Source: Gordonia sp. X0973
GTDB lineage: Bacteria; Actinomycetota; Actinomycetes; Mycobacteriales; Mycobacteriaceae
Direction: 5' to 3'
Length of the DNA stretch: 64,000 nt
Assembly: GCF_013348785.1 (NCBI RefSeq)
Contig: NZ_CP054691.1
Span: forward strand, 806,001 to 870,000
Made by a program: the position numbers and the translations under genes. Shown here in pieces: positions 21,233-27,475 of this stretch (positions are counted from its first letter, which is position 1; each line of letters opens with the position of its first letter). Under the pieces are notes generated by a model, which worked only from the letters and a program-made list of their open reading frames with translations, was not told where the DNA came from and made no database searches.

Positions 21233-21308
21233 GGGGCTATGGCGCAGTTGGTAGCGCGACTCGTTCGCATCGAGTAGGTCGGGAGTTCGATTCTCCCTAG
21301 CTCCACCA
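21233..21308 (+). tRNA. tRNA-Ala (anticodon CGC)
   Basis: A full cloverleaf can be folded by hand: acceptor GGGGCTA/TAGCTCC with one G-U pair, D arm GCGC/GCGC, anticodon stem ACTCG/CGAGT around loop TTCGCAT (anticodon CGC at 21266-21268), and T arm GGGAG/CTCCC. CCA is encoded at 21306-21308. It reads GCG codons. tRNA 3' ends are frequent integration sites, and an accessory island begins directly after it. Confidence 0.95.
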
Positions 21309-21371
21309 GTTCATGCAGGTCAAGGGCATGAAAATGCGGCAATCGGTTGTTAGGCAATATTCCAAGGCAAC

Positions 21372-21605
21372 ATGGAATGTCAGTCCCCGCAGGTAAAATG
21401 TGGCGCGCGGAAAGTCCTCCTCGACGAGGAGGGGACGGAAATGCCCTGGGCGCACGACCTCGGCACACCTGCGCGTCGTGGATGGTTCGTCGTCGGCGTC
21501 CCGATCGTCGTCGTGTCGCGGCACCTCGGCAACGAAGACATCACGACCACTTTGAACTGCCTCGGCTACATAGATCGCGCTTCGGGCGAGAGACCGCTGC
21601 CGTGA
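21372..21605 (+). pseudogene. Tyrosine recombinase (integrase) relic, frameshifted
   Basis: Only the C-terminal catalytic end of a phage-type integrase can be seen. HDL is read in one frame, RHTCASWMV in the next (about 21455-21490), then the first frame resumes with GVPIVVVSRHLGNEDITTTL and IDRASGE. Joined, these rebuild the family pattern HDLRHT...GVPI..VSRHLGH..ITTT. Two compensating frameshifts break it. The usual GH is GN, and the catalytic tyrosine position is leucine (NCLGYIDR), so it must be inactive. Placed 65 bases after tRNA-Ala, it marks an old site-specific integration event. Confidence 0.75.
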
Positions 21606-21748
21606 TTGGGGCCGAATCGGCGACGATGGTTAGGCGCCGAGATGCGCGCGGGCGACCCGGCCGTATGCGCTGCCGGCGCCGCACCAGCGTAGGCGCGTAC
21701 GCCAACTTTTCCGGGAGTCCAGGAGCGCGTTGATGCAACGGTGCGAAT

Positions 21749-22204
21749 TCAGTCTTCCTGAGACTCGGTGCTGAGCACTCTCTCCCCGAAAACGAAGAAC
21801 GGGAACGCTGGCATCTTCACGCCGGCATCGGCGCATAGTCGCCGCAAGCCCATCTCGGTGTACGGCATGAGAAAAGTCAACGCATGGTCCTGTCCAAACA
21901 GTTGGACCGCGCCTTCACTGAGCGGCAGGGGCGGGTCGAGGGCGAATCGGACGCACTCCTGAAATTCGAGGATGTACTCACCGGTGCAGAGACGGGCGGA
22001 GAGACCGACGACGAAGAAGTCGTCCTCGACCGAGCCCATAATGGGGACCAGGTGGATCTTGTCGAGAGCGCCGCCGCTCGCAGCTAGCTCGTCGCGCGTG
22101 GGCCCCTCCGCGCGGAACTGCAAGCGCGCAATTATCGTCCGGTGGTCGATGTTCGTGACGTGAGTCCAGATCTCATCGGCGTCTACCTCACCCGTGGTCG
22201 CCAC
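21749..22204 (-). CDS. SecB-like chaperone of a toxin-antitoxin-chaperone (TAC) module
   Basis: Protein of 151 residues resembling SecB. The segment DDFFVVGLSARLCTGEYILEF (61-81) matches the SecB beta-sheet strands, and LMPYTEMGLRRLCADAGVKMPAFPF (112-136) matches the C-terminal helix that in SecB reads LFPYARE...GFPPL. Actinobacteria normally lack a housekeeping SecB; copies there usually belong to TAC systems such as M. tuberculosis HigB1-HigA1-Rv1957. In those the chaperone protects the antitoxin from proteolysis. GTG 22204 has AAGG nine bases upstream and overlaps the antitoxin gene by 17 bases. Similarity is judged by eye, so a distant SecB-fold relative is possible. Confidence 0.65.
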   Translation of the reverse strand: MATTGEVDADEIWTHVTNIDHRTIIARLQFRAEGPTRDELAASGGALDKIHLVPIMGSVEDDFFVVGLSARLCTGEYILEFQECVRFALDPPLPLSEGAVQLFGQDHALTFLMPYTEMGLRRLCADAGVKMPAFPFFVFGERVLSTESQED

Positions 22205-22655
22205 GGCGAATCACCTTCTTCTCGCTGTGGCGGAAGAGGTGATCAACCCATGCATCGACCTCAACCGGTCCCGGCGAGGAACATTCAACGGGGGCTGGCG
22301 TCGAAGGAAATGTGACCCAACTCGTCAGTATGTCGCCCGGGCGAACCACGACACGCCGATGGAATCGGACATCCAGCTCAGCGTGATGGAAGTATCTGAT
22401 TCCCACCGACGCTGCGTACCGACGGATGGTTGAGAGTTTCGGGTCCGATCCCGGGCGCTCAAACTGGCTGACCGCGGTCTTGTGTCGACCCCATACTCGG
22501 CCGAGATCCTCCTGGGTGAGGCCTGATAGGTGACGCAGCACGACTAGGCGCTCGATGAACGTCCTGTCCTCCTCGGCCAAGTCGGCAGCCATCCGGGCCT
22601 CATCCGACTCGTCGGAGATCCCGTACTCCCTGGATAGCTCCTCAAGTATGCCCAT
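22188..22655 (-). CDS. XRE-family HTH antitoxin with C-terminal extension
   Basis: DNA-binding protein of 155 residues. The helix-turn-helix is at about 38-86 (LRHLSGLTQEDLGRVWGRHKTAVSQFERPG). The C-terminal part (about 112-155) is hydrophobic then charged and may be the chaperone-addiction segment found in TAC antitoxins. The order toxin-antitoxin-chaperone equals that of higB1-higA1-Rv1957. ATG 22655 is chosen because the domain starts there and the palindrome GTAGAGG-N4-CCTCTAC lies just upstream at 22658-22675, a likely autoregulatory operator. Longer in-frame starts would overlap the toxin gene. Confidence 0.75.
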   Translation of the reverse strand: MGILEELSREYGISDESDEARMAADLAEEDRTFIERLVVLRHLSGLTQEDLGRVWGRHKTAVSQFERPGSDPKLSTIRRYAASVGIRYFHHAELDVRFHRRVVVRPGDILTSWVTFPSTPAPVECSSPGPVEVDAWVDHLFRHSEKKVIRRGDHG

Positions 22656-22657
22656 GT

Positions 22658-22675
22658 GTAGAGGGTAACCTCTAC
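22658..22675. promoter_or_regulatory. Palindromic operator candidate at the toxin/antitoxin junction
   Basis: GTAGAGG, four bases, CCTCTAC: a perfect 7-bp inverted repeat three bases upstream of the antitoxin ATG that also covers the toxin stop codon. Such a site could let the XRE protein control a second, internal promoter for antitoxin and chaperone. No second copy was found upstream of the operon. Confidence 0.5.
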
Positions 22676-23238
22676 TTGTCAAGCGTAGGCTGAGTGTCGG
22701 CATTCTCACCCTCCAGCCACGCTTCGAACTCGGCCTTGGCGTCGGCAATATGGCCGTTCTGGATCGTCTTCCAATCATCCGCCTTGCTTGCCGAGGGTTT
22801 CCTTGCGCAAATCAGCCAGAGGAGTATCTCCGGGGCAACGCGGGGTGCCGCGAAGTACATTCTGAACTGCCAACCGAAGATGTCAGTTCGATCACCCGGC
22901 TCGACCTCGACGGGGTGGCGCATCTCGCCGAGCTGGTCTTCACCGCCAACTGGCCAACACCACTCCGACGCACGGTCGGTCGAGAGGCCTTGTCCACGAA
23001 TCGAGCCTGCGGTCGCTCTCTTCTTGAGGTCAATGAGGTCGCGAATAAGGGCGGCGACGAGGCGTTTGCGGGCCGCCGTCTGGCGTGGTGTGAGCGGCTC
23101 TCCGCCGTCATCGGTGGTGAACTCGTCGCTCACCTCGCGGAAAAGGTCACGCATCTGCTGACGAAACCGCTCTACTTCAATCTCGCGGTGTCGATTCGGG
23201 AATGCGGATTGCCAGGCGTGGCAGTCGAGTTCGCTCAC
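22672..23238 (-). CDS. Putative RelE/HigB-like toxin
   Basis: Protein of 188 residues directly upstream of the XRE antitoxin. The C-terminal half fits a RelE/HigB fold: strands FGWQFRMYFAAP and EILLWLICARKP (121-148), then the helix DDWKTIQNGHIADAKAEFEAWLEG (154-177), as in HigB/Gp49-type toxins. These are ribosome-dependent mRNA nucleases. The first 110 residues are mainly helical, charged and longer than usual for HigB (about 100-125 residues in total). The start ATG overlaps the stop of the upstream membrane-protein gene by four bases. The fold assignment is by eye and tentative; the gene order is the main support. Confidence 0.5.
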   Translation of the reverse strand: MSELDCHAWQSAFPNRHREIEVERFRQQMRDLFREVSDEFTTDDGGEPLTPRQTAARKRLVAALIRDLIDLKKRATAGSIRGQGLSTDRASEWCWPVGGEDQLGEMRHPVEVEPGDRTDIFGWQFRMYFAAPRVAPEILLWLICARKPSASKADDWKTIQNGHIADAKAEFEAWLEGENADTQPTLDK

Positions 23239-23801
23239 GCTGGTACTTCCGGGCGAGGTGGATCCCCAGCCGCGTCGCCATGGTCACCTCGGTCCTCGCT
23301 ACCGGGAAAAGTCGTGAATGGCTCAATATGTTCGGCACGGAACCGCTCGATCTCGGTCACAAGCGGTGATCGGGCCGGAAGGCGCCGCCCGCCCGGCCAG
23401 TAACCCGAGGCGAACACCCAACCCCCGTAGCCAGCAACCATCGTGCCGGCGAAGGCGGCGGCAATCCCGGCTATCGGTCCTACCAGCGAATACGGCAAGG
23501 TGAAATGAGGAGCCGACAGAAGCATCACACCCCCGGCGCCGATGCTCACAGTCCCGAACAGGATGAGCATGAAACCCAGCAGCGGCTGACGCTGCTTGCG
23601 TGTCAGCCGATCAGCTTCAGAGAGCGCCTCGATGCGGCACCACTCCTGTCGCATCGCCGAGTCCTCGGGCAATAGCGACACAGCCCGATCGAAGTCCTTC
23701 GCATACTGATCGAACCCAGCCACCGCACGCGATGCTGCCGCCGTCGCTCCAGCGGTGCCGAGAATTGTTATCCAGACCGCCGGATCACCCCAACCGCTCA
23801 T
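23235..23801 (-). CDS. Membrane protein of the TAC-like operon
   Basis: Protein of 188 residues of unknown function. It has a weak N-terminal hydrophobic stretch (AVWITILGTAGATAAASRAVAG), a cytoplasmic-looking charged region (30-72), and two clear membrane helices (about 73-97, LLGFMLILFGTVSIGAGGVMLL, and 103-132). A hydrophilic C-terminal tail follows. It overlaps both neighbours by four bases (ATGA), so it is translationally coupled to the toxin gene. Known TAC operons do not usually contain a membrane protein; it could be a sensor, an effector or a passenger. Confidence 0.7.
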   Translation of the reverse strand: MSGWGDPAVWITILGTAGATAAASRAVAGFDQYAKDFDRAVSLLPEDSAMRQEWCRIEALSEADRLTRKQRQPLLGFMLILFGTVSIGAGGVMLLSAPHFTLPYSLVGPIAGIAAAFAGTMVAGYGGWVFASGYWPGGRRLPARSPLVTEIERFRAEHIEPFTTFPGSEDRGDHGDAAGDPPRPEVPA

Positions 23802-23902
23802 GACGGATCCTCCGGTGCCGGAGGATCCGCCTCTGCGATCTGTCGATTCGGCAGGACTCTATCTCGGGCGGCGTCCCGAAGCATGCTCTGCAGGTCGCTC
23901 AC
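23798..23902 (-). CDS. Putative 34-aa leader gene of the TAC-like operon
   Basis: A short reading frame begins with GTG and encodes MSDLQSMLRDAARDRVLPNR and ends QIAEADPPAPEDPS. GGAGAG lies nine bases before the GTG, and its stop overlaps the ATG of the membrane-protein gene (ATGA), as do the other junctions of this operon. That coupling is the main argument for it being real. CAGATAC repeats in both orientations (23901-23975) surround its start and may be regulatory. Function is unknown. Confidence 0.45.
   Translation of the reverse strand: MSDLQSMLRDAARDRVLPNRQIAEADPPAPEDPS
23805..23828. repeat. 11-bp inverted repeat within the 34-aa ORF
   Basis: GGATCCTCCGG-TG-CCGGAGGATCC, a perfect inverted repeat four bases upstream of the membrane-protein start codon. 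In mRNA it would fold into a strong hairpin close to that ribosome-binding region, and so may tune translation of the downstream genes. Confidence 0.6.
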
Positions 23903-24002
23903 AGATACGCACTCTCCGCGCTCGTCGTGGGTAAGGCAAGGACAACTGTATCTGTCGCCGTATCTGTTGCGAATCGAAATCACACATCTGTAATTCCCCG
24001 AC

Positions 24003-24860
24003 GTGCAGGCCCGGGGCCGCGACACCCGAACCTCGGCGCAACGCGACCACGACGCCCTGGAAGCCGGCCTGGATTGGCTGCTGGGCCACCAGGCGTTGGG
24101 GAAACCGGATCGGATCCCGGCCGAAGTGGTGATCACCATCGACGAACACGACTTGGCCCGCCGCGCCGGAATCGGAGTGACCGCGACCGGCACCATGGTG
24201 CCCGTCGGTGACTTGATCCATCTGGCCGCCGATGCGACCCCGTGGCTGGCGGTCTTTCACCACCACACCCGCAGCGTGCTCGATTTCGGGCGGGGCCGGC
24301 GGTTGGCGACCAAAACCCAACGCCTGGCCCTGTTCGCCGCCGAACCCGGCTGCAGCAAACCCGGATGCGGGCAACCGTTCTCCCGCACCCAAGCCCACCA
24401 CGCCACCCGCGACTACGCCCACGGCGGATCAACCAACGTGACCGACATGACCGGGGCCTGCGGCCGACACAACCGGGCCGTCGGTACCAAACCCGGCCAA
24501 TGGGAAACCCACGTCTTCACCAACGGACCCCACACCGGACGCACCGGCTGGCGACGCACCGGAACCGACCAACCCTTCCAGGTCAACCACACCCACGACC
24601 CCCGCACCTACCTACACAACACCCCCTTCGACCCCAACCGACGAGCCGACACCACCAATCACACTCAGACCAGGCCACCGGCCAACACCACCCCACCCGG
24701 CGACGAACCACCGCCACCCCGATCAACAACGAAGCCAACCATCAAACGCATCCGACCCCACGAACACTGGCGACCACCGTCCGGAACATCGATAGATGTG
24801 CCCGGCGAGGACTGGAACTCACCGGTCGAGAAGTCACTCGCTGCCGTGGTTGCCGCATAG
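24003..24860 (+). pseudogene. 5'-truncated 13E12-family (DUF222) HNH endonuclease
   Basis: The frame opens after TAA at 23991 and starts at VQARGRDTRTSAQRDHDAL, which is the middle of a DUF222/REP13E12 protein; the N-terminal half is missing. The HNH nuclease region is present (CSKPGCGQPFSRTQAHH, then YAHGGSTNVTDM and CGRHNRAVG, about residues 116-162), followed by a low-complexity Thr/Pro/His-rich tail. Full-length members have about 400-500 residues. The abrupt loss exactly at the island edge suggests that integration or deletion cut it. The C-terminal tail is very rich in CA/CC codons. Confidence 0.8.
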
Positions 24861-25027
24861 CCCCGTGACGTCGACTGCGGCCACTCCGGGACCGTCAGTT
24901 CACCCGATAGCGTCCGATGACGACGGTCAGTGAACTCACAGGTTTCACTACAGCGGGCGCCAAGGTGGCATTCCTATCGTTGAGAGCATCAAGGAAAAGC
25001 CTTGACCTTCCGACAGAGGAGAAGCGC

Positions 25028-25195
25028 ATGCCGTACAACCACGGTCCCCGTCCCGGCGGCCCTTACCGTCCCGGCCCCCGTCCGCCCTACGGCCGTCCGT
25101 ACGGCCCGGGTCGTCCGCCTTACCGCGACCGCTACCCCTACGGCTACGGTCACCGGCCCTACCGCCACAACCCGTACGGGTACTGGGGTTCCTGA
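25028..25195 (+). CDS. Tyr/Pro/Arg/Gly-rich micro-protein (55 aa)
   Basis: A 55-residue product made almost only of Pro, Tyr, Gly, Arg and His, with repeated PYRPGPRPPYGRPY-like units and ending YRHNPYGYWGS. It has no hydrophobic helix and no cysteine. The ribosome-binding site AGAGGAG is near-perfect, and a strong hairpin terminator follows 17 bases after the stop, so it looks like a real monocistronic gene. Such composition suggests a disordered, nucleic-acid- or wall-binding peptide that might phase-separate; this is inference. I do not recognise a family. Confidence 0.65.
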   Translation: MPYNHGPRPGGPYRPGPRPPYGRPYGPGRPPYRDRYPYGYGHRPYRHNPYGYWGS

Positions 25196-25212
25196 GCCCA
25201 AGCTTCAAAATC

Positions 25213-25249
25213 CAAGATCGGCCCCGCCACCACGGCGGGGCCGATCTTG
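25213..25249 (+). terminator. Hairpin terminator after the micro-protein
   Basis: Perfect 16-bp stem (25213-25228 with 25234-25249) and loop ACCAC, 17 bases after the micro-protein stop, followed by TCTG. It is the expected form of a high-GC intrinsic terminator. Confidence 0.85.
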
Positions 25250-25285
25250 TCTGATCCCTCATACGAATACGAACAACCGAGACCC

Positions 25286-25343
25286 GATACACCGACACCG
25301 GCGCCGCGGCACGATGGCCGTCGAGCACCGGTGTCGGTGTATC
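25286..25343. repeat. 16-bp inverted repeat, possible terminator of the glycosyltransferase pair
   Basis: GATACACCGACACCGG at 25286-25301 is perfectly inverted at 25328-25343, separated by 26 bases. It lies 20 bases after the stop of the minus-strand GT39 gene and may terminate that operon. The long loop is atypical. Confidence 0.6.
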
Positions 25344-25363
25344 TGATGTGGGACGTAGCGGGC

Positions 25364-27475
25364 TCAGCCGTGCCGCAGGTCGTAGACCTTCGCTCCGTCG
25401 ATCATCGTCGGTGTGTGGTTCTTCTCCACCCACGCCTTGATCTGTTTGACCGACTCCGACTGACGACGTCCCCAGCCGCCCGGACCGCCGTTGCCCTCGT
25501 TCCGCGCCCCCTTGCCCTGGTCGTCGTGGTGATCCGGCTCCTCGATGAAGTACCCGATCTGACCATCGCGGACGTACCCCTGGAATGCCGCGAACGTGGG
25601 CGATTCGTCGCGACCGGAGAATCCGCCGACGGCCATGATCGGCATACCGCTACCCAATTGGAGCGGGGCAGAGGCATGTGAGCCGACGGTCGCCGCGGCC
25701 CACCGGCCGTCGGTGGCGCGCAGCAGCGCGACCATCTGCGCCGACGGCGGCTTCTGCGGCTCGCGATGCCAGCCGCCACCCTCGCCCTCGTTCTCGTTGT
25801 CGTCGTGACGTTCCGGACCGGATGCGCGCATCCCGCCCTGGTGGGAATTGCCGATCGTCGCCACGGTGAACGCCGCCGGCCCGACGAGGCCGACCACGAC
25901 CGCGGCGATCGCAACCGCGGTCGCCGAACGTGCCGACATCGCACGCCTCGATGTCGTACTCGTCGACGTCGAGAGCAACGCCAGGCCGACGAGGATCGAC
26001 GCGACGAGAAGCACCCACCGCAGCCACGGCAGCCATCCGTCGGTGCGGCCCAGGAGGAAGAAGCTCCAGACGCCGGTCGCGATCAGCATCGCGGCGAGCG
26101 TGAGCCGCGCGGGCAGCTTCTCGCGTCGTGACCATAGCTCGACCGCACCGATTGCCAGGGTCGCGGCCATCGCCGGAGCCATCGCCACCGTGTAGTAGGG
26201 ATGCATGATCCCCTTCATGAAGCTGAAGACGAGGCCGGAGATCAGCATGATCCCACCCCATAGCAGCAGCGCCGAACGCGACGGATCGGTGCGCGGGGCA
26301 CGACGGGTGCACCAGAACCCGGCGATCAGCGCGATCAGCGCGGCCGGAAGAACCCAGGTGATTTCGCCGCCGATGGAGTCGGTGAACAGCCGCCCGATGC
26401 CGGGGTCGCCGCCGAACATCATGTGGCCGCCCGGACCCCCACCGGAACCCGGGCCGCCACCCGATCCCAGACCGGCTCCCGGTCCGCCACCGGATCCCGG
26501 ACCGAACCCGGGTCCGCCCGGCCCGGGACCGAATCCCGAGCCGTTCTGACCGGATCCGCGCGTCGGATTCCCGTCGCCGCCGAAGACGCGACCCGCTCCG
26601 TTGTAGCCCAGGGCGAGCTCCATGAGGCTGTTACTCGTCGATCCGCCGATGTAGGGACGGGAGCCCGCGGGCCACAGGCTGACCAGAGCCACGTACCACC
26701 CGGCGGAGACGACCAGCGACGCGATGCCGACAAGGCTGGTGCGCAGGCGCGTCCAGAAGCCGCCGGGCAGCGCGACCAGCAGCACCAGCGCGATGGCCGG
26801 CAGAACGATCAACGCCTGCATCAACTTGGTCAGGAACGCGAATCCGAGCGCGACACCGGCGAGGGCCACCCAGGTCGTCGCCGTCCGCGTCGTCGCTTCC
26901 GAGTCCAGCGCGCGCACCACGCAGTAGCAGGCGACCACCAGCAGCAGGACCAGCAGGGCGTCGGGGTTGTTATACCGGAACATCAATGCCGCGACGGGGG
27001 TCACCGCGAGGACGATGCCGGCGAGCAGTCCGGCCGACGGTCCGTTGGTGCGTCGCACCGCGAAGTAGAGCAGGGCGACGGCCGCGACGCCCATCAGGGC
27101 CTGCGGCACCAACATGCTCCACGCGTTGAACCCGAAGATCCGCCCGGACAGCGCCATCACCCAGATCGACGCCGGTGGTTTGTCGACGGTGATGGCGTTA
27201 CCGGCGTCGAGCGAGCCGAACAGCAGCGCCTTCCAGCTGCGCGTCCCCGCCTGCACCGACGCCGCGTAGAACTCGTTGCCCCAGCCGATCGCGCCCAGAT
27301 TCCAGAGGTACCCGACGGCGGTGACCACGAGAAGGCTCAGCAGCGCCGGGCGCTCCCACGGGGTGTGACCGTCGCGCAACCACCGTCGCACAACGCCGGC
27401 ACTGCGGCCGGGGGCGTCGGAAACAGCGTGGGTGGCCGACGGCGTGCGGTCGACTTCGAGGCTCGTCGCGGTCAT
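25364..27475 (-). CDS. GT39-family membrane glycosyltransferase (ArnT/PMT-like)
   Basis: Polytopic membrane enzyme of 703 residues in the GT-C/GT39 group, which transfers sugars from polyprenyl phosphates. The N-terminal region has LGAIGWGNEFYAASVQAG with the catalytic acidic residue in the first outer loop and DKPPASIWVMALS (about 97-109). About ten to twelve helices follow. A Gly/Pro-rich insertion of about 60 residues (GSGFGPGPGGPGFGPGSGGG and onward, near 305-365) sits in an outer loop. A C-terminal extracytoplasmic domain ends WVEKNHTPTMIDGAKVYDLR. It overlaps the GT2 gene by four bases; the GT2 product probably supplies the polyprenyl-linked sugar. The acceptor is unknown. Confidence 0.85.
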   Translation of the reverse strand: MTATSLEVDRTPSATHAVSDAPGRSAGVVRRWLRDGHTPWERPALLSLLVVTAVGYLWNLGAIGWGNEFYAASVQAGTRSWKALLFGSLDAGNAITVDKPPASIWVMALSGRIFGFNAWSMLVPQALMGVAAVALLYFAVRRTNGPSAGLLAGIVLAVTPVAALMFRYNNPDALLVLLLVVACYCVVRALDSEATTRTATTWVALAGVALGFAFLTKLMQALIVLPAIALVLLVALPGGFWTRLRTSLVGIASLVVSAGWYVALVSLWPAGSRPYIGGSTSNSLMELALGYNGAGRVFGGDGNPTRGSGQNGSGFGPGPGGPGFGPGSGGGPGAGLGSGGGPGSGGGPGGHMMFGGDPGIGRLFTDSIGGEITWVLPAALIALIAGFWCTRRAPRTDPSRSALLLWGGIMLISGLVFSFMKGIMHPYYTVAMAPAMAATLAIGAVELWSRREKLPARLTLAAMLIATGVWSFFLLGRTDGWLPWLRWVLLVASILVGLALLSTSTSTTSRRAMSARSATAVAIAAVVVGLVGPAAFTVATIGNSHQGGMRASGPERHDDNENEGEGGGWHREPQKPPSAQMVALLRATDGRWAAATVGSHASAPLQLGSGMPIMAVGGFSGRDESPTFAAFQGYVRDGQIGYFIEEPDHHDDQGKGARNEGNGGPGGWGRRQSESVKQIKAWVEKNHTPTMIDGAKVYDLRHG

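Follow-up and report, generated by a model that had tools for sequence, protein, structure and literature searches.

Within a 64,000-nucleotide stretch of the Gordonia sp. X0973 chromosome (hereafter the window; the genome is a single contig of 3.75 Mb), three minus-strand genes appear to form a toxin-antitoxin-chaperone (TAC) module of a diverged subtype, which a prophage or similar element probably left in the chromosome at a tRNA-Ala gene. We place the probability of this reading at about 0.8. The genes encode a candidate toxin of 188 amino acids (aa) with a GTG start (22672..23238), an XRE antitoxin of 155 aa with a C-terminal tail (22188..22655), and a 151-aa SecB-like chaperone, likewise with a GTG start (21749..22204). 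An earlier note on this DNA had proposed the order toxin-antitoxin-SecB, which is indeed present in the window and is repeated in eight further loci; in one of these the toxin frame is broken. The eight comprise the bacterial loci G320, G182 and G352 of Gordonia and G171, the Gordonia phages Wrigley (genes 48-47-46) and Agueybana (gp43-42-41), and the IMG/VR contigs L061 and L062. Such recurrence makes the arrangement more than chance. The broken frame is that of G352, in which the toxin is split over two frames (L012 7567-8155, minus strand) and the antitoxin and chaperone frames are whole. The same note suspected a new TAC subtype, and we file the module as a diverged TAC variant.

The identity of the third protein comes from its predicted structure, from profile comparisons and from its relatives. 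An AlphaFold2 (AF2) model of moderate confidence adopts a SecB-like fold and aligns best with the structure 5mtw, which is the chaperone of an established TAC. This indicates that the 151-aa protein is, as modelled, a SecB-fold protein and agrees with its earlier description as SecB-like. Among the 128 open reading frames (ORFs) of the window, the chaperone ranks second with a profile of its relatives and first with a combined profile; the partial sequence P0013 was dropped from all such profiles and the partial P0015 from one. The chaperones of L062 and L061 are 37% (E 3.8e-20) and 26% (E 4.7e-12) identical to that of the window.

The antitoxin matches HTH_31 (E 1.2e-4, short of the curated cut-off) and, in PHROGs, phrog_1373 (E 1.4e-8), and its helix-turn-helix matches are phage transcriptional regulators. 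PADLOC returned twelve weak matches, all over this helix-turn-helix, and none for the other four proteins encoded by the minus-strand frames at 21749-23902. In TAC antitoxins the C-terminal extension varies, and the segments recognised in HigA1 of M. tuberculosis abound in aromatic and basic residues (PMC5105189, PMC6377645). Tail lengths differ among the relatives as well. The motif W-x(4-6)-R occurs in 6/7 tails linked to a SecB-like gene and in 0/2 linked to a DUF6941-like gene (P 0.0045 by shuffling, with related rows; the L061 and L062 tails lie outside this set). Because the rows are related and, by eye, the pattern is missing from the tail of L062, which was added later, we treat the motif as no more than a hint of a ChAD-like tail.

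Two loci, G221 and G048, retain the toxin and XRE genes and have a DUF6941-like gene in the place of the SecB-like gene (L015 9655-10332 and L017 555-977, both on the minus strand; E 5.4e-4, below the curated cut-off, for G221 and E 4.2e-8, above it, for G048). Together with the weak tail pattern, these loci speak for a two-gene toxin-antitoxin pair whose SecB-like neighbor serves elsewhere, such as in general folding, without controlling the antitoxin. We consider that arrangement unlikely, since the third gene keeps its position and overlap in eight other loci, its product most resembles the chaperone of a proven TAC, and both loci without a SecB-like gene have another gene in that place.

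The toxin is rare. A protein search returned two homologues besides the query, in Gordonia otitidis and Mycolicibacterium parafortuitum. With the window's own genome included in each count, the toxin was found in 4/59 genomes of the genus, 7/401 of the family (one doubtful) and at least 2/397 of the order, for which up to eight candidates per genome were scored. It was found in 0/396 genomes of the genus of G029, in none of 72,556 plasmid records and in one of 50,697 phage records. A match in G111, which sits in a 945-aa frame, was set aside as doubtful. None of the 58 stretches from a first scan of genome contigs was confirmed as a relative, nor was any relative confirmed in IMG/VR scans with the Wrigley toxin, the Agueybana toxin or the Agueybana chaperone. 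Neither the window toxin nor its chaperone has a convincing match in Pfam, NCBIfam, PADLOC or PHROGs, and when the chaperone, its alignment or the toxin alignment was searched against PDB sequences, only chance matches came back.

Eight aligned toxins have R126, Y128, L139, K147, W156, Q160 and I164 in common, among other residues. Over the RelE core, a family of ten toxins aligned with seven Gp49 proteins at an hhalign score of 24.9, compared with at most 16.0 in 300 shuffles, albeit at an hhalign probability of only 12%. The toxin alignments and profiles leave out the broken G352 frame and include the Agueybana toxin, which had been identified from its position and by eye before it entered the profile; seven of nine Gp49 proteins were kept after L035 (internal stop) and L040 (short) were dropped. 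The RelE/HigB-like character claimed for the toxin is tentative: its C-terminal half aligns with the Gp49 profile, but at that low probability and with no Pfam match, PF05973 (Gp49/HigB) included. The accompanying claim that the toxin is longer than HigB and diverged from it is borne out by its 188 aa, of which about 100 are extra N-terminal residues that form a helical part without known relatives. Gp49 toxins, often labelled RelE or HigB, are described in a review as ribosome-dependent mRNases (PMC11980606), and their possible relation to the window toxin makes mRNA cutting its likeliest mode, which suggests that the toxin probably cuts mRNA and blocks translation through its RelE/HigB-like half. 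This relation also bears on the idea that the trio controls lysogeny, with the XRE protein as a second phage repressor tuned by the 188-aa and SecB-like proteins and no toxin at all. The Wrigley and Agueybana genes do sit in the repressor-integrase region, and the antitoxin does match phage regulators. However, the family of the 188-aa protein can be aligned with Gp49 toxins, the trio also occurs in bacterial loci and is absent from most relatives, and the toxin-XRE order is that of HigBA systems, all of which make a pure lysogeny function very improbable.

The junction between the toxin and antitoxin genes contains an 18-bp palindrome (22658..22675, no strand) with a perfect 7-bp inverted repeat, GTAGAGG-ttac-CCTCTAC, which is common to relatives and is a candidate operator. 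An 18-mer that matches GTAGAGGTTAACCTCTAC at 15/18 or more positions was present in 7/9 loci first examined, and in six of them only 2-3 nt separate its end from the start of the antitoxin gene. In L061 and L062 the match is 16/18, at 2 and 3 nt before the start, which brings the count to 9/11 loci, with Agueybana and G048 as the two in which the palindrome was not found. L061 was found via the palindrome itself and is therefore not independent; L062 was found via a toxin search. In Wrigley, the palindrome lies 29 nt before the annotated start of gene 47 and 2 nt before an in-frame ATG, and the annotated start looks 27 nt too late (L030 6508-6534, plus strand). Scans with the palindrome pattern returned ten stretches of GTDB contigs, two of which carry the module (both Gordonia), and two stretches of IMG/VR, one with the module; the palindrome is thus a DNA handle that has already found one further phage copy. 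We set the antitoxin start at 22655, 16 nt past the toxin stop, because relatives align from there and the conserved palindrome ends 2 nt before it. A longer 196-aa frame (start 22778) was unsupported, as relatives align from 22655.

In 7/9 antitoxins a TANNNT hexamer has its first base at -12 or -13, compared with 5/622 plus-strand ATGs of the window; the window antitoxin has TACCCT at -12 of its ATG. TANNNT is the mycobacterial -10 box, and leaderless messages are common in these bacteria. Taken together, the position of the palindrome, the hexamer and this background suggest a self-repressed, leaderless promoter for the antitoxin and chaperone inside the operon. In the mechanism we propose, the XRE antitoxin would bind the toxin and repress its own promoter at the palindrome, and the SecB-like protein would fold and protect the antitoxin, with both proteins probably also made from the internal leaderless promoter. 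If a phage protein, for instance, captured the chaperone, or if the chaperone were lost, the antitoxin would fail, the toxin would be freed and growth would stop. Of these steps, toxicity, chaperone dependence, promoter activity, the trigger and phage defence are inferred. The position of the trio near integrase and immunity genes leads to the prediction that lysogens with the module should resist some phages. In the titles and abstract openings of the literature searched, mostly without subscription papers, we found no description of TAC modules in Gordonia phages; the module would bring phages of Actinobacteria into the range of TAC systems, with a form that escapes Pfam, NCBIfam, PADLOC and PHROGs.

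Several results weigh against assigning the trio to TAC systems. The SecB model PF02556, with which the earlier note had proposed to check the 151-aa protein, gives it no match, and the same model is silent in 301 genomes of the family. Housekeeping SecB alone scored 8.9 with the window chaperone, under the shuffle median of 11.8, and housekeeping SecB plus one relative scored 13.8, inside the shuffle range. The alignment behind the chaperone's AF2 model included two relatives that are SecB-like themselves, and an AF2 model of the toxin was of no use (pLDDT 42.8) and was discarded. To these are added the low hhalign probability of the Gp49 match and the DUF6941-like genes that stand in for a SecB-like relative in G221 and G048.

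These last two loci also raise a tentative and rather doubtful extension of the TAC reading, in which the constant part is the toxin-XRE pair with its leaderless, self-repressed antitoxin promoter and the third gene is interchangeable (SecB-like in nine loci, DUF6941-like in two). As guardian of the antitoxin and as sensor, the third product would be titrated by an invading phage, and the whole would be a defence cassette of the lysogeny module. If so, a leaderless message would let the antitoxin and guardian be made while ordinary initiation is blocked. The swap also poses the question of whether proteins other than SecB can render an antitoxin dependent on a third component. In the genus to which G048 belongs, a search of 59 genomes for DUF6941 (PF22091) gave one match and missed the copy in G048 itself; no XRE-toxin pair was seen by eye beside that match in the ORFs listed. 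The term DUF6941 was not found in the literature searched.

The module probably arrived with a prophage, because the same trio lies near phage integration genes. In Wrigley and Agueybana it is flanked by repressor/regulator genes on one side and by a convergent integrase on the other, and a protease gene and a small helix-turn-helix gene also lie within this interval. In L061, a convergent integrase 40% identical to that of Wrigley follows after about 1.2 kb, and L062 has a Pfam-confirmed integrase about 180 bp on, on the trio's own strand. Beyond the integrase there are second toxin-antitoxin candidates, an annotated BrnT-like toxin in Wrigley (L030 9404-9990) and a HicA/HicB-like pair in Agueybana (L031 7024-7746). 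In the window, the island setting holds as earlier described: tRNA-Ala(CGC) (21233..21308, plus strand) marks its left edge, and a tyrosine integrase remnant (21461..21590, plus strand) follows as two C-terminal fragments in different frames, convergent with the trio, that match the C-terminal end of the integrases from Wrigley and Agueybana (tblastn, E 7e-7 and 5e-7, 481 bases). Near the right side lies a truncated DUF222 gene (24003..24860, plus strand; PF02720 E 8.3e-21, covering profile positions 196-303 of 306). The close relative G718 has its tRNA-Ala in the same place; similarity to the window runs as far as the final tRNA base (21308) and is found again from 25370. G718 carries different genes across 21309-25369, and the tRNA-Ala site may therefore be a variable spot. 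A search for an attachment-site repeat of the tRNA region found none; it gave only matches of 13 bases, elsewhere in the window, and of 12 bases, in the Wrigley locus. Most likely, the module is what remains of a phage-like element that integrated at tRNA-Ala. The decayed neighbors (the fragmented integrase and truncated DUF222 gene) and the broken toxin frame of the G352 relative would also fit a decaying, inactive TAC remnant, which we think improbable given that the three window genes are uninterrupted and tightly coupled and the palindrome is intact.

Upstream of the toxin gene lie a membrane protein gene (23235..23801, minus strand) and a 34-aa ORF (23798..23902, minus strand), so that all five minus-strand frames of 21749-23902 are where the earlier note placed them. 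Its picture of tight coupling needs one correction: 4-nt overlaps join the 34-aa ORF to the membrane gene (ATGA) and the membrane gene to the toxin gene (GTGA), and a 17-nt overlap joins the antitoxin and SecB-like genes (22188-22204), but the toxin and antitoxin genes do not overlap. The proposed five-gene operon holds for the recurring trio, but no counterpart of the 34-aa ORF or of the membrane gene is known next to the module. BLASTP with the membrane protein found nothing in six relative loci searched (one half masked), and the protein matched only its own genome among 141, by which its gene, though coupled to the toxin, is outside the conserved module. The 34-aa ORF had no match in Pfam, NCBIfam or PADLOC, the only libraries scanned. 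Within its 3' end is a perfect 12-bp inverted repeat with a 2-nt loop (23804-23829, minus strand), which spans GGAGGA and ends 2 nt before the membrane gene ATG. The 34-aa ORF may be a leader whose translation opens this hairpin.

Among known systems, the M. tuberculosis TAC (HigB1-HigA1-Rv1957) has the same gene order, but chaperone identity is 13% in the structural alignment, and the window toxin, at 188 aa, is longer than the 125-aa HigB1 and has an extra N-terminal part. Gp49/HigB toxins (PF05973) align by profile, at low probability, with the window toxin over the RelE core, and the window toxin differs by its N-terminal extension and its lack of a Pfam match. The M. tuberculosis promoters lie upstream of higB1 and Rv1954a (PMC3968373), whereas the window palindrome lies between toxin and antitoxin. 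RosmerTA of Gordonia phage Kita is also a toxin-antitoxin system on a Gordonia phage, one with shown phage defence, but it combines a membrane-depolarising toxin with a protease-type antitoxin, and the accessible part of its description mentions no SecB-like gene (PMC10440598). E. coli HigBAC and CmdTAC are likewise tripartite with a SecB-like chaperone, and both act in phage defence (PMC11980606, PMC11618068); CmdT is an mRNA ADP-ribosyltransferase, whereas the window toxin is putatively RelE/HigB-like, with a predicted role in defence. The reported trigger of HigBAC is the lambda major tail protein (PMC11980606), and by analogy with these systems the window module may guard its host against other phages.
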